Positions 1 to 41,496 of a stretch of 41,805 nucleotides of DNA are shown piece by piece. Position numbers and translations under genes: made by a program. Origin of the DNA: Puniceicoccus vermicola (GTDB lineage: Bacteria; Verrucomicrobiota; Verrucomicrobiia; Opitutales; Puniceicoccaceae). The stretch's first letter is position 1, and the number at the start of each line of letters is the position of its first letter. The DNA lies in the NCBI RefSeq assembly GCF_014230055.1, contig NZ_JACHVA010000018.1:1-41805 (forward strand). Direction: 5' to 3'. The notes beneath the pieces are model-generated. The model was given only the letters and a program-made list of their open reading frames with translations, had not been told where the DNA came from and did not search any database.

Positions 1-154
1 ATGACCAAACCTAGACACCAAATGGTTGTTTCCCCAAGCAGACGCAAAAAGTGACACAGATCGTTCAGAAAAACGCCTTATCTAAGTGCCATTGGAGTCA
101 CACCCTCCATTATAATGAACGCTTACAAAATGTTGGATTTTCGAAGCGACCAAC

Positions 155-195: not shown

Positions 196-1164
196 ATGAA
201 GCGATCAGAAAATCCGAGAAATCACCACTTCATTTCTCAAGCCTACCTAGCGGGGTTTGCGCGGGGTAACGGAAAGAGAAAGCAGGTATCAGTTTTTGAT
301 TTTGAAAACGAGAAAGAGATTGAAGCCACCAACATACGAAATGTCGGTGCAAGTCGCGATTTCAATCGGATCAATTCGACCACGTTGGATCCTCACTTCT
401 TGGAGAAGGAATTCTCCAAATTTGAAACCGATATTCGTCCAACAGTTCGGTCGATCGAAACGAATGGATCACCGACAGCGAAGGAAATGGGTGTACTCCG
501 AACTATGATGAGCCTTTTTGCAGCCAGAAACCCTGGAAGCAGATGCAAAATTCGTGAGGCTGAAGCAAGCCTCTCAAAGGCAATCCTGCGAGAATGCGTC
601 AAAACCCCGGAGCGTTTCGAATCCCAGCTGAAACAAATGCGATCAGACGGCATAGATGTTGACGATTGGGATTTCCTAGAGATGAAGGAGTTTATCGAGA
701 GCGAACGGTACGCAATTTCTCCCGATCAAAGTAGCACAATAGATCTCGAGCTGTCATTGATTGAGCCAATTGCCCGGACCATGGCGGGTAGAAAATGGAG
801 TTTTCTTCGAGCAAATGAAGATACCGGATTCTTTATCACAAGCGACCGGCCTGTAATCCTCAATTGGTACGACCCTCGCAACCTACCCCTAATGATCAAG
901 AGTTCTCCTGGGTTCGGGATGCCAAATACTGAAGTAATTTTTCCGCTTAGTTCAAGAATTTGTATGGTTGGATCATTTGAGGGATCACCTGACGAGTCCA
1001 AAGTGACCTCAAAAATCGTGGGTCACATAAACGCAAATGTCTTAAACCAAGCTTCAAAACAGATCTACTATCATCCGGTTGGATTTAAATTTCATCATAA
1101 TAATAGACTTTTTCGAAATGACGAGATTCTCGATCGCATCAAACGAAAAGCCCCCGCCCCCTAG
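196..1164 (+). CDS. DUF4238 domain protein
   Basis: This 322-residue protein opens with the hallmark of DUF4238, a histidine-rich HHFISQAYLAGF stretch at residues 10-21. The family's function is not established; members are often found as single genes in variable regions, including defence islands. No signal peptide or membrane segment is visible, so a cytoplasmic location is likely. The ATG at 196 is supported by a good ribosome binding site (gaggaaga at 183-190). The gene is clearly more AT-rich than the metabolic genes downstream and is followed by the large nuclease/NTPase gene on the same strand, which suggests that both arrived by transfer. A functional link to that gene is inference. 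Confidence 0.75.
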   Translation: MKRSENPRNHHFISQAYLAGFARGNGKRKQVSVFDFENEKEIEATNIRNVGASRDFNRINSTTLDPHFLEKEFSKFETDIRPTVRSIETNGSPTAKEMGVLRTMMSLFAARNPGSRCKIREAEASLSKAILRECVKTPERFESQLKQMRSDGIDVDDWDFLEMKEFIESERYAISPDQSSTIDLELSLIEPIARTMAGRKWSFLRANEDTGFFITSDRPVILNWYDPRNLPLMIKSSPGFGMPNTEVIFPLSSRICMVGSFEGSPDESKVTSKIVGHINANVLNQASKQIYYHPVGFKFHHNNRLFRNDEILDRIKRKAPAP

Positions 1165-1169
1165 ATCAC

Positions 1170-1325
1170 ATGAAAGAAAAGAAGCATATAAATTTACAAT
1201 TTGAGGATGCGTATCTTTGGTTCCCCGGTTTTCTCAAACTTCTCGCACCTCGGACTCGCGCAGCACCTAGACGTTACCAGCCCTTCTTTTGGAACTGGAT
1301 AATGGGTGGGACTACACTAATCTAG
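1170..1325 (+). CDS. possible 51-aa small protein between the DUF4238 and NTPase genes
   Basis: An ATG at 1170, five bases after the DUF4238 stop codon, opens a frame of 51 codons that ends at TAG 1323-1325 and nearly fills the gap to the next gene. The predicted peptide begins MKEKKHINLQFEDAYLWFPG and is rich in aromatic residues, with a second cluster (FFWNW) near its end. No clear ribosome binding site is present and I recognise no family. The compact same-strand placement is the only argument for a real gene. Confidence 0.22.
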   Translation: MKEKKHINLQFEDAYLWFPGFLKLLAPRTRAAPRRYQPFFWNWIMGGTTLI

Positions 1326-1338
1326 CAACGTATTATTT

Positions 1339-4300
1339 TTGAGTAATATTATGGCGATTTTTGATGTTGAGAAAGACGATCTACTGCGGTTGTCGGACAC
1401 TCTTCTCGAAGAATTGATTGCTCGGCTCTGTGAGGCTGAGGTTGCATCACATGGACATAGTCCTGCGAGTGTCAGTTGGTCAGGCTCCATAAAAGTTTCC
1501 GATGGAGGCATCGACATCCATGTGCAGGTCTCAGTTCCTACTTTCGATACGGGCTTTCTCGTTCGTCCCGATACGATCTTTCAGTGCAAAAAAGACTCTA
1601 TGCCAAAGTCCGCAATTGCAGCGGAGATGCTGAAGGATGGAGAACTAAACCCGACCATCGCAAACCAAGCCCAGATTGGCGGCAGTTACATCATCGTGAG
1701 CCTCTCCGACGATTGTTCACCACCTATGAAGAAAGATCGCCTCGATGCCATGCGGGCAGCGGTCGCCAATGATCCAAACGAGGATAACATCCACCTCGAT
1801 TTCTTCGACCGTTCAAAGCTGGTCCAATGGGTGCGGCAGTGCCCGTCGGTTTTGCTGTGGCTGAAAGGTAAGCTTGGTCAGGGTTATTCGGGATGGCAAC
1901 CTTATGGAGCCTGGAGCAACCCGCCCAAAGGATCACTTGACACTCTCATTTCTGCTCCAGGCGTGACCGTCCACGTGCCGACTGAGAAAGGTCATGAGCT
2001 TTCAATCGAAGACGCAATAGAACCTATGCGTCGGCTGATACGCACATCAAACAAAGCGATCCGCGTCACGGGACTTTCGGGTGTGGGTAAGACACGGATT
2101 GTCCAAGCACTCTTTGACGAAACTGTCGGTAACGATTCACTTGACCGGACTATCGCTGTCTATGTGGATACGGGACAAGACCCCGATCCGTCCGCATCTG
2201 CTATGCTGGATCGTCTGATTGCCGAAGGTCGTCGCGCGGTGATGGTCCTCGACAATTGTCCCTCTGATCTGCATTCGGCATTGGCAGCCAAAGTGTCTGC
2301 TGCAAGTAGTGATGTCCGCCTGATCACGGTTGAATACGATATCAGAGACGACAAGCCGCAAACCACTGAAGTGATCCACATCGAAGCGAATGGACCGGAA
2401 GTCGCCGAAGAACTTTTGGTGCGCCGTTTTCCCGAAATTGGTCAAGGAAATGCACGGCGTGTCGCCGAGTTTGCTGATGGCAATTCCAGGGTAGCCTTGG
2501 CGATTGCAGAAAGAGTTGAACAAGGTGAGAGCCTCGCCCAATTGTCAGACGCAGAATTGTTCAACCGCCTATTCCAACAACGGAAGGGAGAAGACGGTGA
2601 CCTACGCGAACAGGCCGAAACCCTGTCGTTGGTATACTCATTCTCGATTTCCGACCCGGAGGTCGGTCAGAATGAACTAGAAATCTTGGGCTCGATTTCA
2701 GGGCACTCAAAGGCTCAATTGTTCAGAGCTACCAAGAAGCTGGCAGACCGACATGTCGTGCAAAGGAGAGCCCATTGGAGGGCGGTATTGCCCCATGCAG
2801 TCGCAAACAGGTTGGCAGGCTATGCGTTGAAGAGCATCCCCGATGAGACCCTGAGATCAACGTTTGAAGTATCAGGAAACGGTCGCCTTCTGATGTCGTT
2901 CGCCCACAGACTTGGCTTGATGCATGATCACCCTGTTGCCAGAGAGATTGTTGAGGCTTGGCTGCAACCGGATGGCCTGCTTGGCCGCATTTCGGACCTT
3001 GATGAGAATGGATTGAGGATGCTGGACTACATTGGGCCCGTTGCACCAGATGCACTGCTTGATCGGATCGAAGCAGAACTCACCTCGCCAGACTTTCAAG
3101 GAATGGAGCCGAAGCACAATCCCCGAAGGACCACGATCCTCAACCTGCTTCAGTCTCTGGCCTACGAGGCCCACGCATTTGACCGCTGCATGTCGGTGCT
3201 GATCCGCGTTGCGGACCGTGAAGATGAAAAAAACAATTATGATGCGGTAAGTGACAAGATTTCTGGCTTCTTTCAGCCCTATCTTTCAGGCACCCATGCT
3301 TCCATGAAACAACGCCTCGCCATCGTAGAGAGGTGTCTGAGTTCCGAAGATGCGGGACGGCGTTCCTTGGGACTGAAGCTTCTATCCACGGCACTAGATG
3401 GACCGCCATGGACGGGCTTCGGTCTGAACGAGTTTGGCGCAAGGCCGAGGGATTACGGATACCACCCCAACCATGAGCAACTTGTCGAATGGCGCACTGC
3501 TTTCATTAATCTGGCAGTGCGGCTTGCGAACGCTGACGACGAGGACATCAAGAGCCGTGCACGGCAGGTCCTGGCGAATCAGTTTCGAGGTCTTTGGCAT
3601 CAGGAAGCAATGCGGGCTAAGCTGGTCGAAGCAGCACGGGCGATCCATGATCACGAGCCTTGGGGAGCAGGCTGGAAGGCCGTTCGTTCGATCATCTACT
3701 TCGACCACACGAGGGAGAAGGGTGAAGCTGAGCCGGAACCACTTCCCCAAGACTTGGCCGACCTGGATCGGGACCTGGAGCCTCGCGACCTGATTGCGAA
3801 GATCAAAACATACGTGCTAAGCAAAGAGCATGATTACTGGGCACTTGACGACGAGTTCGACAACAGCAGTGATGACAAATACCGTGCGACTGAAGATCGG
3901 TTGGCTACAAAGGCAACAGACTTAGGAGAGAGCTTTGCAGCTTCAGACCATACCCTCGATGAGTTAGGAGCTGAATTGTTCTCAAACGACTGGATGCCCT
4001 ATCGCAGAGCCTTCGGTGTCGGCCTCGCGAAGGGGGTCCACAATTATCTCGAAGGTTGGCAAGGCTTGCTGGAACACCTCGCTAATTCATCCGGTTCGAA
4101 CAACGACTTTGCGGTGATCGGTGGCTTTATCGAGGAGGTCGCTGCTAATGATCCTGAGCTTTCGCGCAAGTTTCTGGATGAATGTGCACAACACCCAGAA
4201 TTGAAGCGAGTTCTTGTGGGCCTTCATCCTTGGGGCGACTTCACTGAAGCCGACCTGAATCGATGCATGGCCCTCCTTGATTATGAAGACACCAACCCAA

Positions 4301-5205
4301 CCATGTTCGAGTCGATCCTATGGCGGGATAACTATGCTAACCTGCCATCCGAACGATTGTTGGAACTTGCAACACGGCTAATCACCAGAACCAACGGCAG
4401 TGACGTGTTGCTTGAAGCGTTGAGCATGAAGCTACATAGTAAAGACCCTGCTGAGGACACTCTGGGACCCGAATTTCGGAAACTAGGCTTGGAGGCGGCA
4501 ACTAAATCGCTGTTAGCAGATCAGAACGATTTTGGAGAGAGCAAAGACTACCAAATTGAGAAAGTAGTCAGGGCTGCGCTAAGCTTCGATGGCAATGAAA
4601 CGGTGAAGAGCCAATGGATAGATACCATCTACTCCTTCGTAGATAAGCATTATGGATACACTCATTCTTTCGACGACGCCATAGCAACAACGGCACAGCT
4701 AATGCCGGAAGCGTTCTTGAATCGTTTGCTCCTCGGCACAGAGGACCAACAGCATCGACGAAAATTCTTCATCCATCGCGGTGGAATAAGGCGGTCTCCG
4801 CTGTCCAAGGTCGATGTCAGTGTTCTGATCAGTTGGTGTCGGAAGCAGAACGATGTAGTCGTCTGGGAACTGATTGCTTACGGAATAGTGCTTTGGGAAA
4901 AGAATGAAAGCAACGGGAGCGACTCTTTCAGAATAGAATCTGCTTTAGAATTTCTTGAAGCGGCACCAGAGCCCGAAAAAGTCCTTCACGCCTACGCAGA
5001 TCGCGTCGCTCCATCTTCTTGGTCGGGCAGCCGTGTCAGCGCTATGCAGCCTAGGGTTAGAGCTATCGAGGAGCTTACGCAGCATGAAAGAACTGACATC
5101 GCTGCCGCAGCCAAAAAAGTGTTCGCAAGATTGAGTAGAGAAATTGAACGCGAGAGAGTGCGGGAACAACATAGAGACGAAGAGCGAGAACAAAAGTTTG
5201 AGTAA
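1339..5205 (+). CDS. Mrr-like nuclease / STAND-type NTPase fusion, putative antiphage protein
   Basis: This 1288-residue protein has a PD-(D/E)xK nuclease-like N-terminus: GGID with Asp59, then IFQCKK with Gln82-x-Lys84, the Q-x-K variant seen in Mrr-type enzymes. A P-loop follows (GLSGVGKT, 245-252) with a Walker B strand (VMVLDN, Asp305), typical of AAA/STAND NTPases. The remaining 850 residues are charged and mostly helical, without a motif I can name; helical sensor repeats are plausible. The order nuclease, NTPase, long C-terminus matches STAND antiphage proteins of the Avs kind, where the C-terminus senses phage protein and the nuclease cuts DNA. That role is inference. The start may be TTG 1339 or ATG 1351; neither has a strong ribosome binding site. 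Base composition is lower in GC than the genes after 5.4 kb. Confidence 0.7.
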   Translation: MSNIMAIFDVEKDDLLRLSDTLLEELIARLCEAEVASHGHSPASVSWSGSIKVSDGGIDIHVQVSVPTFDTGFLVRPDTIFQCKKDSMPKSAIAAEMLKDGELNPTIANQAQIGGSYIIVSLSDDCSPPMKKDRLDAMRAAVANDPNEDNIHLDFFDRSKLVQWVRQCPSVLLWLKGKLGQGYSGWQPYGAWSNPPKGSLDTLISAPGVTVHVPTEKGHELSIEDAIEPMRRLIRTSNKAIRVTGLSGVGKTRIVQALFDETVGNDSLDRTIAVYVDTGQDPDPSASAMLDRLIAEGRRAVMVLDNCPSDLHSALAAKVSAASSDVRLITVEYDIRDDKPQTTEVIHIEANGPEVAEELLVRRFPEIGQGNARRVAEFADGNSRVALAIAERVEQGESLAQLSDAELFNRLFQQRKGEDGDLREQAETLSLVYSFSISDPEVGQNELEILGSISGHSKAQLFRATKKLADRHVVQRRAHWRAVLPHAVANRLAGYALKSIPDETLRSTFEVSGNGRLLMSFAHRLGLMHDHPVAREIVEAWLQPDGLLGRISDLDENGLRMLDYIGPVAPDALLDRIEAELTSPDFQGMEPKHNPRRTTILNLLQSLAYEAHAFDRCMSVLIRVADREDEKNNYDAVSDKISGFFQPYLSGTHASMKQRLAIVERCLSSEDAGRRSLGLKLLSTALDGPPWTGFGLNEFGARPRDYGYHPNHEQLVEWRTAFINLAVRLANADDEDIKSRARQVLANQFRGLWHQEAMRAKLVEAARAIHDHEPWGAGWKAVRSIIYFDHTREKGEAEPEPLPQDLADLDRDLEPRDLIAKIKTYVLSKEHDYWALDDEFDNSSDDKYRATEDRLATKATDLGESFAASDHTLDELGAELFSNDWMPYRRAFGVGLAKGVHNYLEGWQGLLEHLANSSGSNNDFAVIGGFIEEVAANDPELSRKFLDECAQHPELKRVLVGLHPWGDFTEADLNRCMALLDYEDTNPTMFESILWRDNYANLPSERLLELATRLITRTNGSDVLLEALSMKLHSKDPAEDTLGPEFRKLGLEAATKSLLADQNDFGESKDYQIEKVVRAALSFDGNETVKSQWIDTIYSFVDKHYGYTHSFDDAIATTAQLMPEAFLNRLLLGTEDQQHRRKFFIHRGGIRRSPLSKVDVSVLISWCRKQNDVVVWELIAYGIVLWEKNESNGSDSFRIESALEFLEAAPEPEKVLHAYADRVAPSSWSGSRVSAMQPRVRAIEELTQHERTDIAAAAKKVFARLSREIERERVREQHRDEEREQKFE

Positions 5206-5303
5206 TTACCAAGCTTTTATCGGAAGAGGAGAGGAGGCAAATGGGGTCAGCCCAATGTTTCATGCTTTTTAGTCAGACTGAATGACGTCAGCAACTGTGT
5301 CTC

Positions 5304-5405
5304 TCATGCAAGGGATAAATTTTGATTTTGATTTTTTGCGATGGAGTGAAGATGGATGATGATCTTTCTCATGGCCGCAGTGAGGGCGACTTTGTCAGGT
5401 CTAGA
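5304..5405 (-). pseudogene. C-terminal remnant of an IS110-family transposase
   Basis: On the minus strand about 33 codons ending at 5304 read SRPDKVALTAAMRKIIIHLH and onward to a stop. The K-x-A-x-T-A-x-M-R-K pattern followed by a short helix is the usual end of IS110 transposases (transposase IS116/IS110/IS902 domain). Nothing recognisable of the rest of the protein remains, because the frame runs into the activase gene region. It is of a different subgroup from the intact element at 40402-41496, whose C-terminus reads ARKLLVALWKYLEK. It marks the border between the defence-like block and the metabolic block. Confidence 0.55.
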
Positions 5406-5454: not shown

Positions 5455-6153
5455 CTAGAACTGCGGAACCGCCATCCCGAGGTCTTCGTATTTGGCATTG
5501 CCGATCGAGTGATACGGAAGGCGCTCCAAATACTCGATTCCGGGATGGCGTTCCCAGCGGTCCAGAAAGGCTGCGTGTTCGGCGTCGTCGTTCACTCCGG
5601 GAATGATCGGGCATCGCAAATGAATCCGAGCGCCCTGCTCCAGAAGCCAGTCCAGGTTTTGCTGGATCAAGCGACCATCGACTCCGGTCCACTGGCGATG
5701 TCCTGCGGCATTCCAATGCTTGAGGTCGAAGTGGAAGAGATCCACCCACGGCAGGAGTTCCTCGAGCCGCTCGCGCGAGACTTGGCCGCAGGTGTCGAGA
5801 CAGGTATGAATCCCCTCGTTGCGAGCGGCTTGGAGAAGCGCCCGGCAAAATTCAAACTGCACCGTGGGCTCCCCGCCGGAAACGGTCATTCCCCCACCCG
5901 ATGACTCGTAATAGGACCGATCCGCGCGAACCACATCCATGACGTCGTCCACGGACATCCGCTTCCCATACAGCTTTCCGGATCGACCGACCTGCGGTTC
6001 CCGCTTCTGGGATTCGGGGTTGTGGCACCAGGCACAACGCAACGGGCACCCTTTGAGAAAGACCGTCGTCCGCAACCCCGGTCCGTCATGCAAGGAGGCT
6101 CGCTGAATGTCGAAAACGATTCCGGAATCCGCCACTGACTCTTGAGTCTTCAT
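5455..6153 (-). CDS. glycyl radical enzyme activating enzyme (radical SAM)
   Basis: This 232-residue radical SAM protein uses S-adenosylmethionine and a [4Fe-4S] cluster to abstract a hydrogen from the glycyl loop of its partner enzyme. The cluster motif CPLRCAWC (Cys36, Cys40, Cys43) has the CX3CX2C spacing of the family, followed by HNPE, and SGGEP (92-96) is the usual SAM-contacting motif. It is short and lacks the extra cysteine-rich ferredoxin-like insert that many dehydratase and decarboxylase activases carry, so in this respect it resembles the pyruvate formate-lyase activase. It starts four bases after the stop codon of the glycyl radical enzyme gene, so the two are co-translated. It is the last gene of the four-gene operon. 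Confidence 0.9.
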   Translation of the reverse strand: MKTQESVADSGIVFDIQRASLHDGPGLRTTVFLKGCPLRCAWCHNPESQKREPQVGRSGKLYGKRMSVDDVMDVVRADRSYYESSGGGMTVSGGEPTVQFEFCRALLQAARNEGIHTCLDTCGQVSRERLEELLPWVDLFHFDLKHWNAAGHRQWTGVDGRLIQQNLDWLLEQGARIHLRCPIIPGVNDDAEHAAFLDRWERHPGIEYLERLPYHSIGNAKYEDLGMAVPQF

Positions 6154-6157
6154 GATG

Positions 6158-8338
6158 CTAGTTCAGAGTTCTCGCCAAAACCTCCAACTGTCCGGGGCGC
6201 GGAAGGTCCACGAAGCGAATGCTGAATCCCCCGACGCGCACCATCAGGTGTCCCCACTTTTCCGGTTCGCGCATTGCCGCTTCCATGTCGTCCCGGGAAA
6301 CCACGGTCACCATGGCCTGCGCTCCTCCGTGACGGAAATAGGTCCGCAGCAGCGCATCGAACTTCGGCCGCATCGCCCCGAACCATTCTTTCGAGAATTT
6401 CATATTCTGCACCGCCCCGGCATGGAGGGAAGGATCCAGTTTTACCAGCGAGTTCAAAAAGGCCGTGACCCCGTTGAGATCGCTCCCCGAGGAGGGGTTG
6501 TTGGCGTTGGCCATCGGCTGTCCGGACTTACGGCCGTCGGCACTCGCGCATGTCTTCCAACCGAGCACGGTATTGGCCCAATTGTTGATGACCACGACCA
6601 AATAGCTGTCCAACCCGACCCGTTCCGCCTGCTTCGAGGTTTCCGCACAAATGTGTTCATGAACCTTGCGAGCCATGGCATCGGCCAGCCCTTCATCGTT
6701 GCCATATTTACTGACTTGGCGACAGGCGGCCTGAATCTCGGAAAAACCTTCAAAGTTGGCATCCATCGCCTCGACGAGTTGGGGCAAAGTGAATCGCCTC
6801 TGGCGGTAGACCAATTCCTCGATCACGTGCAAACTGTCCGCGGCATTCGTGTTGCCGTAGGTTTCCAAACATCCTCCGAGGAAGCGTGCCCCACCCCCGA
6901 AGGCAGACTTCTTTCGCTTCACACAATCCGAAGTCAAGGCGCTGATAAAGGCCAGAGGAGCCTCTTGGGCCATGACGTCATACTCCAACTTCTGCTGAAG
7001 CGCCAAAGCGGTCACATGGTGATCGACCACCCGGCAATAGCCCTCCCAAAGCGCATCGAAGTCCTGGTAGTCTGTGATCGCGGGAAAATCCTCAACGACC
7101 TTTCGTCCGGTATTGGGGTCCCGCCCGCCGTGCAGAGTCACCTCCAAGGCTTTGAGCAAATTGATTACTCCATTCGGAGAACCTTCGCTGTAGTGACTCA
7201 GGACATACTCGCCACAACCGTAGGGAGTGTATTGCTCGGCCATGTCGAGACTGACCCCAAAAGCCTTCTGCACCGCCGGAATGTTGACCTCGTCGTTGTA
7301 GAGCATCGGGAAGGTGCACCCCTCCCCAATCGCATCGATGGCACGCTCCCACAGCTCGGGGTTTTGACCGTCGTAAAACCGCAGGGAGAGTTGAGGCTGA
7401 TTGAGCCGGACTTTCCGGGTCCCCTCGATCGCGAGTAGGGCGAATTCATCCGCCGCCTCTTCGTCGGGCCTCCCCCGCCCTCCTACGATCAGCCGATTGT
7501 CATACATATTGTCGTAAGCATGCATCAACCGCCAAAGACCGCAGACCAGCTCCAACGCTTCTTCACGGCGCAAAATCCCCTGCTGCAAATCCGCCTGGAG
7601 GAAGGGCCCCAACGCCACGTCGAGGCGCCCGTAGTTCCAGGTTCCCGAGTGAAGGGCGTAGAGCCAGAAGAGTTGAATGGCTTCCCGAAAATGGCGAGGA
7701 GGCTCATGGCGAATCGCCGCCAGCGTTTTTTCGATCTCCGGAGGAACCGATGCCCGGTAAGAATCGATCGTCTCCCGCAAATGACCGACCACAAACGCAA
7801 AGGGACTGCCCGAGAGTTCGGTCTCCAGTCCATCCAGCCCCAAACGCAACAACTTGGGAAAGTCCAAAGACGAGCCCGCCATGCGGTAGAGCGGAAACGC
7901 CACTCCGCTGTCCTCGGTCCACGCATCGGAAGGAAGACGCTCCGAGACCCACTGCGGATAAGAGGCACGGACCTTTTCCACGGTGGTTTTCCCCCGCCAA
8001 TAGCGAGTGATTTCGGCAGCCGCTTCGGCACAGGCCGGATACAGCTTGGCCCCCTCTTCGAGTGCTTGGAAGCAACAATAATACCCCAGATTGACGGGCT
8101 CCGGGCTCAGCCCCGCCAATGGATAGAGGACTCTGCCCGCGAAAACATCGCCGCTTTCCACGGGTTGAAACATCCCCCGGAACTGAACGGACAGAACCGC
8201 CGCCTCACGATCCTCCGGGGAGTTTCCCTCATTCTTGCGATGCTGCTCCGTCAGCTCCCAGGCGTAAAGGATGCCTTTCCGAAAGAGAGCCTCGGAGGCG
8301 AGCCAATGTTCAGGAGAGAGTTCCGACAGGGTTTTCAT
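6158..8338 (-). CDS. glycyl radical enzyme of unassigned subclass
   Basis: This 726-residue protein is a pyruvate formate-lyase-like glycyl radical enzyme. The C-terminal radical loop reads RVGGFSIRFVDL, with Gly704 the expected radical site. The opposing loop is PYGCGEY, with Cys375 as thiyl residue and Glu377 as the likely base. The CxE spacing is that of the dehydratase/lyase branch (usually GCVE), not the Cys-Cys pair of pyruvate formate-lyase. DGRKSGQPMANANNPSSGSD (601-620) is the conserved segment before the final domain, with several family residues changed. Length is slightly below the common 780-850. The substrate cannot be read from sequence. It overlaps the upstream TIM-barrel gene by 29 bases. 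A polyol, sugar acid or related hydroxylated compound is a guess from its neighbours. Confidence 0.88.
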   Translation of the reverse strand: MKTLSELSPEHWLASEALFRKGILYAWELTEQHRKNEGNSPEDREAAVLSVQFRGMFQPVESGDVFAGRVLYPLAGLSPEPVNLGYYCCFQALEEGAKLYPACAEAAAEITRYWRGKTTVEKVRASYPQWVSERLPSDAWTEDSGVAFPLYRMAGSSLDFPKLLRLGLDGLETELSGSPFAFVVGHLRETIDSYRASVPPEIEKTLAAIRHEPPRHFREAIQLFWLYALHSGTWNYGRLDVALGPFLQADLQQGILRREEALELVCGLWRLMHAYDNMYDNRLIVGGRGRPDEEAADEFALLAIEGTRKVRLNQPQLSLRFYDGQNPELWERAIDAIGEGCTFPMLYNDEVNIPAVQKAFGVSLDMAEQYTPYGCGEYVLSHYSEGSPNGVINLLKALEVTLHGGRDPNTGRKVVEDFPAITDYQDFDALWEGYCRVVDHHVTALALQQKLEYDVMAQEAPLAFISALTSDCVKRKKSAFGGGARFLGGCLETYGNTNAADSLHVIEELVYRQRRFTLPQLVEAMDANFEGFSEIQAACRQVSKYGNDEGLADAMARKVHEHICAETSKQAERVGLDSYLVVVINNWANTVLGWKTCASADGRKSGQPMANANNPSSGSDLNGVTAFLNSLVKLDPSLHAGAVQNMKFSKEWFGAMRPKFDALLRTYFRHGGAQAMVTVVSRDDMEAAMREPEKWGHLMVRVGGFSIRFVDLPRPGQLEVLARTLN

Positions 8339-28600: not shown

Positions 28601-31600
28601 ATGATTACCCCCAATCAATCGACGACAGGGCGCAGATCACGCACCCCGAATCATGGATTTGCCCTGATCATCGCCCTCTCCCTCATGGCGTTGATTTTTC
28701 TCCTTCTCCTGAGTCTCGCCGTCCCCACTCGAATCGGCATGGAGAACCTTTCCCAAGCCCAAACTCGCAATGAGGCCCGTCAAAATGCTCTCTGCGGCCT
28801 GACCATTGCGCTCGGCAACCTCCAAAAACAACTGGGCGTGGACCAGCGCACCAGTGGGTCGCCCCTTTTTCTCGACGATAGCCTTGCGGCGACCGCAGCG
28901 CCCTACCACTGGACCGGGATCTGGGATACCAAAGAATTGAACGCAGACGGAAGCAACAACCCGACCTACGGAGAAAATCTCGGCTGGCTGGTTTCTGGCT
29001 ATGATGCTCCCAATTTTGCGGACGCAATCCCTACGGTCGCCAATCTACTCAATCCCGATGGAACTCCGATCGATCCGAACTCCACGGCAGTTCTCGTCGG
29101 TCAGGGCTCGGCTAACTCGATCAATGACTTTGTCGCAGCCCCCAAAGTAACGATTGGAAATACCGGCGAATACGCTTACTGGGTGGGTGACGAAGGGCGT
29201 AAGGCGATGACCACCCTATCCGGTCGAGCCGAAAGGGGAGAAAATCCCTATCCGGGAAATTCCCCCAACGTCAGAACGCGTAGCTTGTTATCCGCTCCCG
29301 CCCACAACGGAGTCAACGTACTAACCGGCCTCGAAACTCTCCAACCGGGAAACGACCCAGCACTCGCCAACGATGTTTGGAAATCCCGAAGCTCTGACGA
29401 AATGATCCTTGCCGGGATCCGCTTGAATAACGACGATCTGTGGGAGGAACCTTTTCAAGATTTCTATCACGATATTTCCTTCAATTCCCACACTCTCCAA
29501 ACCAACACCCGAGACGGCGGCCTGAAGAAAGATCTTAGCCTTCTCTTCGAGCTCAGCGATGCTGATTTTGCCCGGACTCCTTACTCCGGGAATTCTACCG
29601 ATCCAGCTTTCTCGGACTGGATTTCGACTCCTCCCACCGATGGAGCCTCCTATATCGATCCGGTAACGAACGACCAAGTAAGCTATCTCTTCAAAGAGGA
29701 AGCCTTGCGCTACGGAGCCAACTCAGGCGCATACGTGCGAGGCCCCACATGGGATTACCTTCGTAATTTCTATCGGCTCTACAAAGATATCGAAGACAAC
29801 GATACAAGTCCCTCCATTCCCATGCGCCCCTTTCGCCCAAGTGCCCTAGACTTTTCGACAGAAGGTGGAGACCGAGGATACATGTGGACGATGGAAGCCG
29901 ACGGAGGAGGCGATTTTGAAACCACCGGTGAAGCAGATACTTTTGTCAGCACGGTTGTTCAACCCAAAGGATACAACCATCAAGACCCGGTCACACGCCT
30001 GACCCGCCCCAGCGTCATCCCTCTCGTCAACCGGATTATCTACGTTTTCTCCCTCTATGAGGATCAGAGCGTCGATAAGTATCGCTATGTTCCAGAAGGC
30101 CAATTCAATAAAGACGGAGACGCAGCGAAAGAAGGAGGTGAGTTCGAGAAAACAGGAGGAACGACCGATGCGATTTCGTTAGTTCTGGAACCAGTCGTCA
30201 TCCTCTGGAACCCTTACAACGTAGCCGTTGAATTCAACGGAGGAATCAGAATCGAAAACCAATCCAACTTTGGTTTCTTGTTTTCTCTGGCTCCTCCCGA
30301 TATCGCCGCCAACGGTAAACGACTCCCCTTCGAGAAAGAGAATCTCGACCGAGTGCAGATGGCTGGACAGCTCTCCGCGTTCGCCAACATCGGAGGAGGC
30401 AATCTCACTAATCTTCAGTTTATTTTAGGACGCGATGAAACGATCCGCATGGAACCAGGGGAAGTGCTCTACTTTTCGGATCCAAATTCTTCCCCGACTC
30501 CCTGGGCTAGCCTACCTAGATCTCCAAAAGAAACCTATACTCTCCCGACAATACTTCTCGAAAGAGGATTTAATAAGGCCGGAGGAGTCATCCTCGGAAG
30601 AAGAACGGAAACAACAAACAATTGGAAAACTGAAGGTCTGATTCATCAAATCCCAGCGGACTCCACAGATCCCTTTCAGCTCGATTTCTACCCTTGGGGC
30701 GGATTCTCTTTGGCAAATGGGGGGACAAACCGAAGAGACGCGAAAGAAACAAAAATAGAAACGACCATTTCTTATATTCCAGAATCTGGACTTCCAACCT
30801 ACGGGCATATCACCAATACCGACACCCCGATTCAAAGAAATTACCTCAAACTTCGCGGACCCAAAGAAAGCGGAAACATCGCTCCGATCCGCAATTGGCT
30901 GTACGGTCAATCTGGAACTGCCGGTCCATTTCCGCTCCTCATTTACCCTGAAGAAATCGGTTCGAATCCAAATCGAAAATTACCTTTTCTTTCTTACGGC
31001 GTTTATCAAAACCCAATTCTACCTGACTTAAACGTAGTCGACTCCCCCACCGAGTTCATCGGTTCCATGTCCCCGTTTGCCGTCCACGTTGATAGCCAAT
31101 TCTCGCACGGAATCAAAACTCCACCATACACGGCTCAGATGGCCCCGATGTCGAACTATTCCAGCTTCGACAACCTCGGCGACCAAGGATTCTTCGGCAA
31201 CGGTTACTCGGCGGGATCTGAGAATCACGTAACAGTCTCCGAAATTCCTACTTATCCTTTGCAATCTCTCGCATCTCTACAGCATGCGAACGTCAGCCCC
31301 ACTGCTTACATGCCAGGCCAGGCAATCGGGAATTCCTGGGCAAGCGGTTCGTTCGGTCTCGACGAAACCATGACCAGCGCCCTGCCACAGCCACGATACA
31401 CGATTTACGACATTTCCTATTTCTCCAACCAGGCTCTCTTCGACGACTATTTCTTTTCGTCATTAACCCCTGAGATGGATCTTGAAGGCGACACGACACA
31501 AATCCTCGACCTTACGACGACCTTGGAAAATCTCGTCGATGACGCCAATAGCAACAACCATACCTTGAGACTGAACAACGAGCGATTTTCATACATCGAC

Positions 31601-32419
31601 GATTCTCCCGGAATCGCTACCTCTTTGGTCGGTGATCTAGACGCGGTCGATGGTTTCTCCAAGACCGCCAAATATTTTGGCCTCGAAGGGGGCTTCAACG
31701 TAAACAGTCTATCCGTCGATGCTTGGGATGCGTTCCTGGCCTCTACGCAAGGAATAGACTACACTTACAATGATCCTGGGAGAGGCTATAGCACCGAGAA
31801 CAATACCGAAACGATATTTCCTCGCACCACCCTGCCCAACGGAACGGATAGGGATTCCTGGCGGGGCCCCCGAGCCCTGTCGAATGCGGAACGGCGCTCC
31901 CTCGCCTCCGCTATTGTCAATGAGATTCGCGAGAGGGGTCCGTTCTTAAGTGTTTCGGATTTCGTCAACAGAGAGATATCGACGAATGACAACGCGAAAA
32001 AAGGCGCGATCCAAGATGCAATCGATTGCACCAGCCTGAATAATACGATTGATTCTGAAAAAGCCTATACCGATGTGGAAAGCTATTTTCAAACCGGTAA
32101 CATAACCGCAGAGACGAAGGTTGGAATTCCCGAGTACCTGACTCAAGCCGACGTGCTGACTCCGATCGCTCCTTACCTCAGCGCACGCTCCGACACCTTC
32201 GTCGTTCGCTCTTACGGCAATTCAACGAACCCGATCACGGGTATTGTCGACTCGGAGGCAGTCATTGAGGCGGTCGTTCAAAGAATTCCCGACTATGTTA
32301 ACCAGAACAACGATGCGGCCGAGACCCAGATCCCGAACCTCTCGAATCCAACGAACATCAATTTCGGGCGGCAATTTGTGGTCGTTTCTGCGCGTTGGCT
32401 CGAAAAAGACGAAATTTAA
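28601..32419 (+). CDS. giant pseudopilin-like protein (Verru_Chthon cassette protein A-like)
   Basis: This 1272-residue protein has a type IV pilin/PilX-like N-terminus: a short basic leader, then Gly-Phe and a 25-residue hydrophobic helix (GFALIIALSLMALIFLLLLS, 18-37) followed by ARQNALCGLTIALGNLQKQL. The last segment is the typical helix of Verrucomicrobiota 'Verru_Chthon cassette protein A' proteins (usually ALGELQKxxGPDQR; here GVDQR). The rest is an Asn/Asp/Ser-rich surface-like domain without a motif I can name. Such proteins are presumably exported by a pilus- or type II-like machine, but their function is not known. The gene sits between glycosidase genes behind an operator-like site, and the next gene follows two bases after its stop codon. 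Confidence 0.75.
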   Translation: MITPNQSTTGRRSRTPNHGFALIIALSLMALIFLLLLSLAVPTRIGMENLSQAQTRNEARQNALCGLTIALGNLQKQLGVDQRTSGSPLFLDDSLAATAAPYHWTGIWDTKELNADGSNNPTYGENLGWLVSGYDAPNFADAIPTVANLLNPDGTPIDPNSTAVLVGQGSANSINDFVAAPKVTIGNTGEYAYWVGDEGRKAMTTLSGRAERGENPYPGNSPNVRTRSLLSAPAHNGVNVLTGLETLQPGNDPALANDVWKSRSSDEMILAGIRLNNDDLWEEPFQDFYHDISFNSHTLQTNTRDGGLKKDLSLLFELSDADFARTPYSGNSTDPAFSDWISTPPTDGASYIDPVTNDQVSYLFKEEALRYGANSGAYVRGPTWDYLRNFYRLYKDIEDNDTSPSIPMRPFRPSALDFSTEGGDRGYMWTMEADGGGDFETTGEADTFVSTVVQPKGYNHQDPVTRLTRPSVIPLVNRIIYVFSLYEDQSVDKYRYVPEGQFNKDGDAAKEGGEFEKTGGTTDAISLVLEPVVILWNPYNVAVEFNGGIRIENQSNFGFLFSLAPPDIAANGKRLPFEKENLDRVQMAGQLSAFANIGGGNLTNLQFILGRDETIRMEPGEVLYFSDPNSSPTPWASLPRSPKETYTLPTILLERGFNKAGGVILGRRTETTNNWKTEGLIHQIPADSTDPFQLDFYPWGGFSLANGGTNRRDAKETKIETTISYIPESGLPTYGHITNTDTPIQRNYLKLRGPKESGNIAPIRNWLYGQSGTAGPFPLLIYPEEIGSNPNRKLPFLSYGVYQNPILPDLNVVDSPTEFIGSMSPFAVHVDSQFSHGIKTPPYTAQMAPMSNYSSFDNLGDQGFFGNGYSAGSENHVTVSEIPTYPLQSLASLQHANVSPTAYMPGQAIGNSWASGSFGLDETMTSALPQPRYTIYDISYFSNQALFDDYFFSSLTPEMDLEGDTTQILDLTTTLENLVDDANSNNHTLRLNNERFSYIDDSPGIATSLVGDLDAVDGFSKTAKYFGLEGGFNVNSLSVDAWDAFLASTQGIDYTYNDPGRGYSTENNTETIFPRTTLPNGTDRDSWRGPRALSNAERRSLASAIVNEIRERGPFLSVSDFVNREISTNDNAKKGAIQDAIDCTSLNNTIDSEKAYTDVESYFQTGNITAETKVGIPEYLTQADVLTPIAPYLSARSDTFVVRSYGNSTNPITGIVDSEAVIEAVVQRIPDYVNQNNDAAETQIPNLSNPTNINFGRQFVVVSARWLEKDEI

Positions 32420-32421
32420 CC

Positions 32422-33105
32422 ATGATGCGAATTATAACCTTATCGATCTTCATCTTCGTATTTGCACACGGCCTTCACAGCCAGACGAGTTCAAGTGAAA
32501 TCAACTTCAAATTTCGGGCGCTCGCCTTGAACTACCCTCTCAACCGGGGAGTTTACCTCCAACCGGAAGACGGAGAACTGTACCGAATTTTCTCCAACGC
32601 CTCCACCGATTGGATTGAATACCGGGGTCCGAATCCGATTCAATTTTACACCGCGAACCCCAAAGCTCCCGGTGGCCGCACAGTCATCGGTTCTTTTGAC
32701 GCGACAAAAGCACCACCAGACCCCCTATTGCTCTTTTCAAAATCCGATGCAAATTCGACTTCTTACCGGATCGACGCCATCGACAATAGCGTAGATTCAG
32801 CAGGCCCCGGCAGTTATCGAATCTTCAATTTTACCGAAAAAACAATTGCCGGGAAAATTGACGATCAGAAGTTCCTTCTGAAACCTAGAGCCTCAGCCTT
32901 TGCACAAGTCAAAGAACAGAAGGACTTCGAAGTCACGGTCCAACTAATCGAAAGCGTCGACTCAAAACCCAAACGCCTCTACGCCTCCAGCTGGACTTTC
33001 TCGGAAAACTTCCGCTATCTCGTCTTCATTCTCCCCAGCGACGACCGCACCCGGGGCAATATTCAAATCCGTCTCATCTCTGACCTGATCCGCAGCGACG
33101 GATAG
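32422..33105 (+). CDS. exported hypothetical protein, partner of the pseudopilin
   Basis: The start at ATG 32422 (MMRIITLSIFIFVFAHGLHSQ) gives 227 residues with a clear signal peptide cleaved near residue 21. An upstream in-frame start inside the pseudopilin gene (32395) would spoil that signal, so I prefer 32422. It lies only two bases after the pseudopilin stop codon, so translation is probably coupled. The mature protein is mostly beta-strand-like (FKFRALALNYPLNRGVYLQP near its start, LYASSWTFSENFRYLVFILP near its end). I recognise no family. Its placement suggests a periplasmic partner in assembly or export of the pseudopilin, which is inference. Confidence 0.7.
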   Translation: MMRIITLSIFIFVFAHGLHSQTSSSEINFKFRALALNYPLNRGVYLQPEDGELYRIFSNASTDWIEYRGPNPIQFYTANPKAPGGRTVIGSFDATKAPPDPLLLFSKSDANSTSYRIDAIDNSVDSAGPGSYRIFNFTEKTIAGKIDDQKFLLKPRASAFAQVKEQKDFEVTVQLIESVDSKPKRLYASSWTFSENFRYLVFILPSDDRTRGNIQIRLISDLIRSDG

Positions 33106-33164
33106 TCACGAGAAGCCAATGATTGGCATTGAACCCATCCTCCAAATCTCTCATCCCTTCTTGC

Positions 33165-33176
33165 TATAACGTTATT
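33165..33176. promoter_or_regulatory. LacI operator-like site abutting a GH39-like gene start
   Basis: tataacgttatt matches TATAACGTTATA at 11 of 12 positions with a perfect ataacgttat core. It ends four bases before the start codon at 33180, so a bound repressor would block both transcription through this point and the ribosome binding region. It also argues against the longer frame starting at 33123. Confidence 0.6.
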
Positions 33177-33179
33177 CTC

Positions 33180-35471
33180 ATGAAATTGATCCAAAAAACA
33201 CTCTGCCTGATGGGGCTTCTGCTCATCAGCCACACCGCCCTGCAGGCGGAACTCCAGCTCTCGATTTCACCAGATCGTTCGTCAGATCCCAACCAACCCA
33301 TCTCCCGCGATCTGACGATCGTCAACGACAGCAGTCAGCCGGCTAAATTGAACATCCAATTCAGCATCCAGCCGGACCCACAATTCAGCGTCCCGAGCCA
33401 AGTGGAATCCTCTTCGAGTCCGATCACCCTGCCCTCTACCGGTCCGGTGCTCGACCAGACGAACCTCACCGTCGAAGTCGGCGCAAACGAGACGAAAACC
33501 GTCAACCTGCAATCCGAAAAGACTCTGGATGTTGGTTTCTACCTATTAGGGGCCTCCATTCATGAGAAGGGGCAGGACCAATACTATCTGGTCACCGTCC
33601 ATCAATTGGTTCTCCACGAGGCGTTACCGGAGATCAACGCGGACTCCCGCTTCGGGATGAACGTATCCAATTTAGACTACATCGACATGAACCGTCGTCT
33701 AGGTGTCGGTTGGATCCGCTTTGAAAATCTCAAATGGGCCTTCATTAACCTGGGAAAAGATCAGTTCGCCTTTGATGGCAGTGTGGGTCCCTGGCACGTC
33801 AAGATGGACGAAACCCTCTCCAGCTACAAAGAGGCAGGCTTTCAAACCGTCGGCTACTTTTTCCAAACGCCTTGGTGGGCATCAAGTGCCCCGAGTGACG
33901 TGAAACGCTCCCGCAAACTCGCCTATCCACCGGCCGATTATGCGAATTACGCAGACGCGGTCTTCCAAACGATCGCCCGCTATGGATCCGTCGAGCATCC
34001 CGAGTCGGAACTCAAATCGAAAAACAAGAAATCCGGCTTAGGCACCCTCAACATGTTGGAGCTTTGGAACGAGGTAAACCTCAACAACCCGAAATGGGGA
34101 TTCTGGGTTGGCACGCAGCCGGAATACTTCGAAATGTTCCGTCCGGCAGCGGAAGCGGCCAAGAAAGCGGATCCTGACACCATGATTTCCCACTCCAGCT
34201 ACGCTGGACTCGGATTGGACCTTGTGGATCAACTACGCACCTATACCTACGAGGATGGCAGCCACCCTCTCGATTATACCGACATCATCAACGTTCACTT
34301 CTACACGGGCAAACAACTGCCTGAGCTCGCCGCCCAGGATCCCAATGCTCAGCGCACCGGTAAAAGCATGAAAGGCACCCCTCGGATCGAATCCGACCTT
34401 GCGGCGCTGAACATCTGGCGCAATCAGTTCAAGCCTGGGACGGAAATCTGGTTGACCGAAACAGGCTACGACGTAGGCGGCCCGATTGGCGGAACCTTAC
34501 GAATGCAGGCGGCCAAACTGCCGCGAGCCCTGATGATGTCGATGGCCAATGGTGTGGACAAAATCTTCTGGTATCGTGAGAAAGGTTCCGACCCAAGCAT
34601 GCATGGCGGCGCTGGATTGCTCGCGAACGACGAGCTCCCGCAACCCTCTTGGTTGACTTTTGCAACTCTGATCCGAGAGCTCCACGGAGCCGACCGGAAC
34701 GACTGCCTGCAGCTTCCCTATCCGGATGAGAACATCCGCCTCTACCTGTGGAAGACAGACCAAGGCCCCGTTCTCACTGCATGGGCGATCCAGAATGGAG
34801 GCACGGTTGACCTGCCCTTGGGTAAAGTCACGCAGACCGATGCCTTCGGCTACAAGTCGGAGGTGACTCTCGATTCGCCTTGGGAGGTCAACGACTTCCC
34901 GATCTACCTGAGTGGCATTGAGCTTTCCGGCAGATTGCTCGAGCTCAAAGACCAAGCCGTTCAGTTGAAAACCGCCGAGATGCGAATGATCGAAGCGTCC
35001 AAAGACATGAACTACGCACTCCTCGATTTCGGTTCCCAAGATTCACCGGGCCTCTTGCGGGGGCATGGGATCATTCGTCCCTTTGAGACCTACACCTCGG
35101 AAGACACCTACGAAGCCGGGGCTCAAAACGGGTTTAGCAAACCAGCCCGTCAGGATGGAACGGTCGGACATCTCGCGCGCTACCCTCTTTTCTCCGACTA
35201 CACTCGCTTCGATGCGAACACCGAGTTCACTGTAGACCTGGATCCCGGCACCTACGAAGTCGAGGGCCGCGCCAAGCAAGTCAGCAAGGGCGAGCTTCTC
35301 CTCCAAATCACCGACGCCAGCGGTAAGACCGAAGGTTACCAGATCGGCAAACCAGAAGGGATCTTACCCAACATCGGAGGCGTTTTCACCGTCAAACAGG
35401 GTCCCGTACGCATTCACTGTAATGGCTACATGGACCTAAGCTGGCTCTCCCTGGTCGAAGTCCAGGAATAG
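33180..35471 (+). CDS. exported GH39-like glycoside hydrolase
   Basis: The start is placed at ATG 33180, giving 763 residues with a clear signal peptide (MKLIQKTLCLMGLLLISHT, cleaved after LQA). The frame is open from 33123, but that extension would bury the signal. An N-terminal beta-sandwich (about 25-150) precedes a TIM barrel (about 160-510) with acid/base Glu298 (LELWNEVNL) and nucleophile Glu427 (WLTETGYD), the clan GH-A pair. A C-terminal jelly-roll-like domain (about 610-763) resembles a carbohydrate-binding module. The barrel is similar in outline to that of the gene at 24927, but the flanking domains differ, so the two probably cut different linkages. It is followed by the GH94-like gene 119 bp later. 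Confidence 0.78.
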   Translation: MKLIQKTLCLMGLLLISHTALQAELQLSISPDRSSDPNQPISRDLTIVNDSSQPAKLNIQFSIQPDPQFSVPSQVESSSSPITLPSTGPVLDQTNLTVEVGANETKTVNLQSEKTLDVGFYLLGASIHEKGQDQYYLVTVHQLVLHEALPEINADSRFGMNVSNLDYIDMNRRLGVGWIRFENLKWAFINLGKDQFAFDGSVGPWHVKMDETLSSYKEAGFQTVGYFFQTPWWASSAPSDVKRSRKLAYPPADYANYADAVFQTIARYGSVEHPESELKSKNKKSGLGTLNMLELWNEVNLNNPKWGFWVGTQPEYFEMFRPAAEAAKKADPDTMISHSSYAGLGLDLVDQLRTYTYEDGSHPLDYTDIINVHFYTGKQLPELAAQDPNAQRTGKSMKGTPRIESDLAALNIWRNQFKPGTEIWLTETGYDVGGPIGGTLRMQAAKLPRALMMSMANGVDKIFWYREKGSDPSMHGGAGLLANDELPQPSWLTFATLIRELHGADRNDCLQLPYPDENIRLYLWKTDQGPVLTAWAIQNGGTVDLPLGKVTQTDAFGYKSEVTLDSPWEVNDFPIYLSGIELSGRLLELKDQAVQLKTAEMRMIEASKDMNYALLDFGSQDSPGLLRGHGIIRPFETYTSEDTYEAGAQNGFSKPARQDGTVGHLARYPLFSDYTRFDANTEFTVDLDPGTYEVEGRAKQVSKGELLLQITDASGKTEGYQIGKPEGILPNIGGVFTVKQGPVRIHCNGYMDLSWLSLVEVQE

Positions 35472-40401: not shown

Positions 40402-41496
40402 ATGAAGTTATACATGGCGCTGGAACTGAGCAATACTAAATGGAAGCTGGCCTTCTCGACGGGAGAGAAGATACGGCTGATCACGATCGAGGCTCGTGAT
40501 CAGTTGGCCTTTCAATCGGCCCTGAAGGCGACTCGGGACAAGTGGCAGCTAGGCGAAGACATTGAGGTTTTCAGTGTCTACGAAGCGGGCCGGGACGGTT
40601 TCTGGATCCACCGCTGGCTGGAGGGGTTGGGGATCAACAACGTCATCGTTGATCCCGCCAGCATTGAGGTGAACCGCCGCAAACGCCGAGCCAAGACTGA
40701 CCGCCTGGACGCCAAGGCCTTGCTGCGTCAGCTGATTCGCTACCACGGCGGTGAGCATACGCTCTGGTCTGTCGTGCGCGTGCCGAGCGTGGAGCAGGAA
40801 GACCTGCGTCGGCGCGAGCGAGAGATCAAGCGACTGAAGAAGGAGATCGGTGCGGGCACAGCCCGGATCAAAAGCCTGCTTGTTTTGCATGGACTTCGCC
40901 TCGATTCACTTAGCAAGCTCGATACACGGCTCGATTCGCTGCTCGGTTGGGACAACCGCCCCCTCCCGGAACATATACGCAGCGAGATCGCCCGCGAATA
41001 CGAACGCGTGGAGTTTGCCCGCACCCAACTCAAGGCTCTGGAACGTGCGCGGACTGCCCGAATCGCAAAGCCCCAAACAAAGGCCGAGCGACAGGCCCAC
41101 AAGCTCACCCGGCTCAAGGCCGTTGGCGTCATCAGCGCCATGACCTTAAGCGAGGAGTTCTTCAGCTGGCGAGAGTTCCGCAACGTCCGGCAAGTCGGCG
41201 CCTGCGCCGGTCTGGATGGCTCCCCCTACGACAGCGGCGACAGCAAGAACGAACAAGGCATCAGTAAAGCCGGCAATGCCAAGGTCCGGGCCCTGATGAT
41301 CGAGCTGGCCTGGTCGTGGCTGAGGAACCAACCCCAGTCGGATCTGGCCAAATGGTTCGACAACAACTTCGCCAGGGGAAAACGCAGCCGAAGAATCGGC
41401 ATCGTCGCTCTGGCGCGCAAGCTACTGGTGGCTCTGTGGAAGTACTTGGAAAAAGACGAACTCCCCGCTGGGGCTCTCCTCAAAGAGACTGCCTGA
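40402..41496 (+). CDS. IS110-family transposase (DEDD + Transposase_20)
   Basis: This 364-residue protein has the two-domain layout of IS110-family recombinases: an N-terminal RuvC-like DEDD domain and a C-terminal Transposase_20 domain. The acidic residues fall at Glu8 (MALELSNTKW), Glu61 (VYEAGRDGFW), Asp100 and Asp103 (KTDRLDAKAL). The first is Asp in most relatives, so its replacement by Glu is notable. A coiled-coil-like charged helix (EQEDLRRREREIKRLKKEI) follows. GLDGSPYDSGDS...GISKAGNAKVR holds the candidate nucleophilic serine (Ser278 or Ser281). The frame is intact and full length, so it may be active. The start MKLYMALELS has only a weak ribosome binding site. It is unlike the IS110 remnant at 5304. 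Confidence 0.92.
   Translation: MKLYMALELSNTKWKLAFSTGEKIRLITIEARDQLAFQSALKATRDKWQLGEDIEVFSVYEAGRDGFWIHRWLEGLGINNVIVDPASIEVNRRKRRAKTDRLDAKALLRQLIRYHGGEHTLWSVVRVPSVEQEDLRRREREIKRLKKEIGAGTARIKSLLVLHGLRLDSLSKLDTRLDSLLGWDNRPLPEHIRSEIAREYERVEFARTQLKALERARTARIAKPQTKAERQAHKLTRLKAVGVISAMTLSEEFFSWREFRNVRQVGACAGLDGSPYDSGDSKNEQGISKAGNAKVRALMIELAWSWLRNQPQSDLAKWFDNNFARGKRSRRIGIVALARKLLVALWKYLEKDELPAGALLKETA

Follow-up and report, generated by a model that had tools for sequence, protein, structure and literature searches.

The window analyzed here comprises 41,805 nucleotides and represents a complete contig (C18) of the Puniceicoccus vermicola genome, which is available in 143 contigs. It carries two neighboring genes with matches to described antiphage systems. 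We consider it quite probable that the larger gene encodes PD-λ-4 A, gained by horizontal transfer and working in one chain as an NLR-like antiphage effector for which the partner B would not be needed, and that the adjacent DUF4238 gene is a defense gene of its own. The initial annotation, deduced from the sequence alone, had proposed both genes together with a short ORF as a possibly complete, undescribed defense system. While its antiphage reading is supported, the large gene corresponds to PD-λ-4 A and the DUF4238 gene to a described single-gene system. The features are collected in Table 1.

Table 1. Features of the window, with coordinates, strand and supporting evidence.
Feature	Coordinates	Strand	Evidence and remarks
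Transposase-like repeat, 3' end	1..104	+	Multi-copy, 6 genome places (5 besides the window); contig breaks there
DUF4238 gene, 322 aa, separate single-gene defense gene (predicted)	196..1164	+	PF14022, PADLOC DUF4238-Pers
51-codon ORF between DUF4238 and A	1170..1325	+	No Pfam match; common to no relative
PD-λ-4 A homologue, 1284 aa, nuclease + STAND NTPase + α-solenoid (predicted)	1351..5205	+	PADLOC and E. coli homologue
Predicted PD-(D/E)xK (Mrr-like) nuclease domain, approx. residues 1-170	1351..1860	+	Alignment, AlphaFold2 model
STAND/AP-ATPase-type NTPase, approx. residues 185-500	1900..2850	+	Walker A GLSGVGK (K247), Walker B VLDN (D301)
HEAT/ARM-like α-solenoid, presumed sensor, approx. 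residues 500-1284	2851..5202	+	Structure model
IS110-family transposase 3'-end fragment	5281..5395	-	82% identity to the 3' end of an IS110-type transposase on contig C135, same genome

Identity of the Large Gene

The PADLOC model PD-Lambda-4_A (PDLC03991) matches the large protein with 2014 bits, whereby residues 5-1288, counted in the frame opened by TTG, cover positions 1-1283 of the 1283 positions of the profile. The alignment to PD-λ-4 A of E. coli spans 1,284 residues at 60% identity and contains a single gapped position. The E. coli protein itself scores 2518 bits with PD-Lambda-4_A and is followed by PD-Lambda-4_B (653 bits) 46 bp downstream. Since the E. coli protein aligns from residue 5 of the TTG frame and homologues open with MAIFD, the start is ATG 1351 and not TTG 1339. 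The large ORF, in which a Walker A and the QxK PD-(D/E)xK motif are present, is a real gene, although it encodes 1284 rather than the 1288 residues assigned to it, and the residues formerly counted as Asp59 and Lys251 are D55 and K247. The reading frame is intact. Judged from these matches, the window carries a near relative of PD-λ-4 A, to all appearances intact, and not an undescribed system.

Pfam and NCBIfam searches of the large protein detected the P-loop only, below the cut-offs, and PDB sequence searches returned weak P-loop matches only, with nothing useful for the C-terminus. A search of the phage collection yielded no relative of A.

The PD systems were named by Vassallo et al. 2022 (PMC9519451); in that report, systems were cloned as single ORFs or predicted operons, and each candidate lowered plaquing of its selecting phage. 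The protein in the window is like the A protein of PD-λ-4 in its full-length match, length and invariant residues. It differs in setting: the window has no B gene, and the host lies beyond the Enterobacterales range to which B was confined in our study.

Domain Architecture

Among 63 full-length homologues, D51, G53, D55, Q78, K80, and E92 are invariant, as are the Walker A glycines and lysine (K247) and D301. Both residues singled out initially for mutation, D55 and K247, are included in this set. The AlphaFold2 model of residues 1-560 (pLDDT 87) consists of an α/β N-terminal domain followed by the NTPase. In this model D55 opens strand 56-59, Q78 and K80 lie in strand 74-80, and the two strands are adjacent. 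The N-terminal domain as modeled therefore displays the D...QxK arrangement on adjacent strands of an α/β core that characterizes PD-(D/E)xK enzymes, and we regard it as a predicted nuclease of this superfamily; the Mrr branch is presumed, the domain having been modeled only joined to the NTPase. Because the NTPase crowds the match list, a structure search with the joined model gave no separate match for the nuclease domain. A review that counts PD-λ-4 among the systems of Vassallo et al. files it under P-loop NTPase rather than PD-(D/E)xK, so the nuclease assignment may add to the annotation of this system.

The best Foldseek matches of the NTPase model are 6mfv (STAND), NOD2, CED-4, Sr35, and AVAST5; VIA-align likewise gave STAND/NLR fold matches. 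Walker A and B motifs within an AP-ATPase/NACHT-like fold, combined with a repeat sensor, are the hallmarks of STAND NTPases and are all recognizable in the models. Residues 420-1284 were modeled with a pLDDT of 86.9 and are nearly all helical. Structure matches of this part comprise transportin, karyopherin, PP2A PR65, and importin with Z-scores of about 9-10, a level that indicates HEAT/ARM-like repeats only and no specific relative. The C-terminal 850 residues, which the initial annotation could not place, are hence assigned a confidently predicted HEAT/ARM-like solenoid fold. Invariant residues, models and STAND/NLR fold matches together support the Mrr-like nuclease/STAND architecture proposed at the outset and predict a single-chain NLR-type sensor-nuclease.

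In its layout of effector, STAND NTPase and helical-repeat C-terminus the protein resembles AVAST/Avs and bNACHT proteins. It differs from the former in that a PADLOC scan at E <= 1 found none of the AVAST models (Avs1-5) in the large protein, but PD-Lambda-4_A only.

Distribution of the Partner Gene B

No match to PD-Lambda-4_B was found in the whole genome that contains the window (96% complete), while the same search detects the E. coli control. We therefore limit our claim to a homologue of PD-λ-4 A and do not assign the full two-gene PD-λ-4 to the window.

The wider distribution was studied on 85 A loci, 80 of which come from a single scan across 84,980 species genomes and five of which are annotated plasmid and E. 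coli loci. Among the 61 genome loci whose sequence continues downstream of A for 1 kb or more, 55 are missing B, as judged by tblastn, which distant B-like genes could escape. All B-bearing loci belong to the Enterobacterales, where they fall within one clade of the tree, and in several of them B is split or shortened. Most A homologues, found in Pseudomonadota, Cyanobacteriota, Acidobacteriota, and Bacteroidota, are without B and keep the invariant residues. A without B thus appears to be the usual state.

PADLOC models PD-λ-4 as two components, the families A and B, and in E. coli B adjoins A. From this angle the gene in the window might be an orphan, non-functional without B and kept merely as a recent arrival. 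However, its ORF is intact, its catalytic residues are conserved, and conservation of these residues without B extends over four phyla. We deem an orphan state unlikely. Given the frequency of loci without B and the restriction of B to Enterobacterales, in which it is often broken, A probably acts alone and is sufficient without B.

The DUF4238 Gene

The protein of the DUF4238 gene, correctly recognized in the initial annotation, matches PF14022 over its full length (122 bits, E 3e-35) and likewise PADLOC DUF4238-Pers (155 bits). It is about 30% identical to the product of a gene of the P2-like phage pro483. DUF4238 has been described as a single-protein system conferring strong T7 resistance (Rousset et al. 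2022, PMC9122126), and the likeness of our gene to this system consists in the full-length profile match and the identity to the pro483 gene. It differs in location, since the copy in the window lies in an IS-bounded contig, in a chromosome-like region and not in a P2-like prophage hotspot. DUF4238 genes have no fixed partner; their neighbors vary between pro483 and three plasmid loci. A PDB sequence search with DUF4238 gave nothing useful. Homology of DUF4238 to PD-λ-4 B was considered as well and ruled out, as there is no similarity.

The 51-codon ORF that had been counted as part of the block has no family match, and no relative matches the window DNA upstream of base 1338. It is probably not a gene.

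Do Both Genes Form One Module?

DNA similarity of the window to its nearest relatives starts at base 1338 at the earliest and ends at 5210 at the latest; with these limits, A alone is common to the relatives, and not the DNA upstream of it. A relative of the DUF4238 protein was found near A in none of the 85 other A loci. Neighbors of A homologues belong to no constant family. Most numerous among them are B, PifA-like proteins, and reverse transcriptases (RT), with raw counts of 6, 5, and 5, respectively, for the corresponding PADLOC families among 118 neighbors. A homologues do sit beside other PADLOC families, none of which is constant.

The GC content is 45% for the DUF4238 gene (GC3 45%) and 52% for the PD-λ-4 A gene (GC3 54%), while other tested coding genes of the contig mostly reach 55-60% (GC3 66-73%). 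The AT-rich composition said to be common to the block does not extend to both genes. Lack of DUF4238 at other A loci, DNA similarity ending with A and differing GC content speak against a conserved module, and the missing constancy of A neighbors is a defense-island pattern rather than a fixed operon.

Nevertheless, DUF4238 might have taken the place of B, such that both genes constitute one two-gene system: they are encoded on the same strand 186 bp apart, the genome has no B, and other A genes possess close same-strand upstream neighbors of other kinds (PifA-like, RT, Abi). This pairing recurs nowhere among the 85 loci, nor in the sole other genome of the phylum sample with a full-length A; moreover, DUF4238 stands alone as a system in P2-like phage, and the two genes are unlike in GC content and codon usage. 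We regard a joint system as very improbable. The distribution indicates that the DUF4238 gene adjoins A by chance and that the pair is not an undescribed two-gene system.

As a separate observation, A is preceded on its own strand, at a distance of 75-93 bp, by a recurrent gene of about 725 aa in four Rhodobacterales loci (L016, L017, L019, and L028). Its size and count agree with the PifA-like PADLOC matches, and it is possibly a recurrent partner of A in that clade.

Origin and Genomic Setting

In the tree, A of the window is placed inside a Roseobacteraceae/Paracoccaceae clade (SH-aLRT 100), whose nearest rows are 82-83% identical. In the first sample of related genomes, A is absent from 51 of 51. 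A wider sample of the phylum (387 genomes) contains one other full-length A, 30% identical, with neither DUF4238 nor B adjoining; this distant relative (L101, G376:C32:273424-277209) belongs to the same order as the host and stands alone within the DNA compared. Placement in the tree and near absence from related genomes point to a recent gain of A by horizontal transfer from the Roseobacteraceae/Paracoccaceae side.

Mobile-element remnants, namely the repeat at the contig start and the IS110-type fragment, and a carbohydrate-utilization region flank both defense genes. At one other copy, the repeat forms the end of a transposase-like frame. The IS110 fragment reported initially is real, and a longer IS110-family transposase ORF (40402-41496) is located at the far contig end. 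The carbohydrate-utilization genes of the contig comprise a glycyl radical enzyme and its activase, a sulfatase, a LacI regulator, GH94, and GH3. Promoter and terminator scans gave results not above chance, and an empty site, looked for in genomes of the same family, could not be demonstrated.

Further observations concern the surrounding DNA. The glycyl-radical enzyme/activase pair (5455-8338) is duplicated on contig C95 (L008) of the same genome with 82-87% DNA identity; similarity to this second copy, which adjoins a tyrosine-recombinase-like gene, begins at base 5399. A short repeat of about 30 bp (TGGGGTCAG...) at 5233-5274 occurs at several genome places. It may be REP/REPIN-like, since C135, which carries a related repeat, bears a REP-associated-type transposase frame (MSNHFHLAVE). 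Finally, three ORFs in a row (1272, 236, and 782 aa) at 28601-35471 have no Pfam match at 1e-5, the first of them with a GC content of 52%, below that of its neighbors.

Proposed Function and Implications

We propose that the α-solenoid at the C-terminus detects a phage product. The STAND NTPase, to judge from its fold and invariant Walker motifs, would then exchange nucleotide and oligomerize, and the N-terminal PD-(D/E)xK nuclease would thereby be activated to cut DNA, as the invariant D55, Q78, and K80 suggest. None of these steps would require PD-λ-4 B. DUF4238 would be an independent defense gene collected into the same IS-bounded stretch.

For the family as a whole, we see an even chance that PD-λ-4 is at its core a one-protein NLR-like nuclease system spread over several phyla, with B as a late, dispensable add-on of Enterobacterales, and that other neighbors (PifA-like, RT, Abi, DUF4238) taken up elsewhere may modulate it.

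Our analysis replaces a supposedly undescribed system with two described ones. It adds to the range of PD-λ-4 A, by what appears to be recent transfer, a host that is remote from the gene's nearest relatives. In addition, PD-λ-4 A is given a predicted layout of nuclease, STAND switch and solenoid sensor, and B is predicted to be dispensable.
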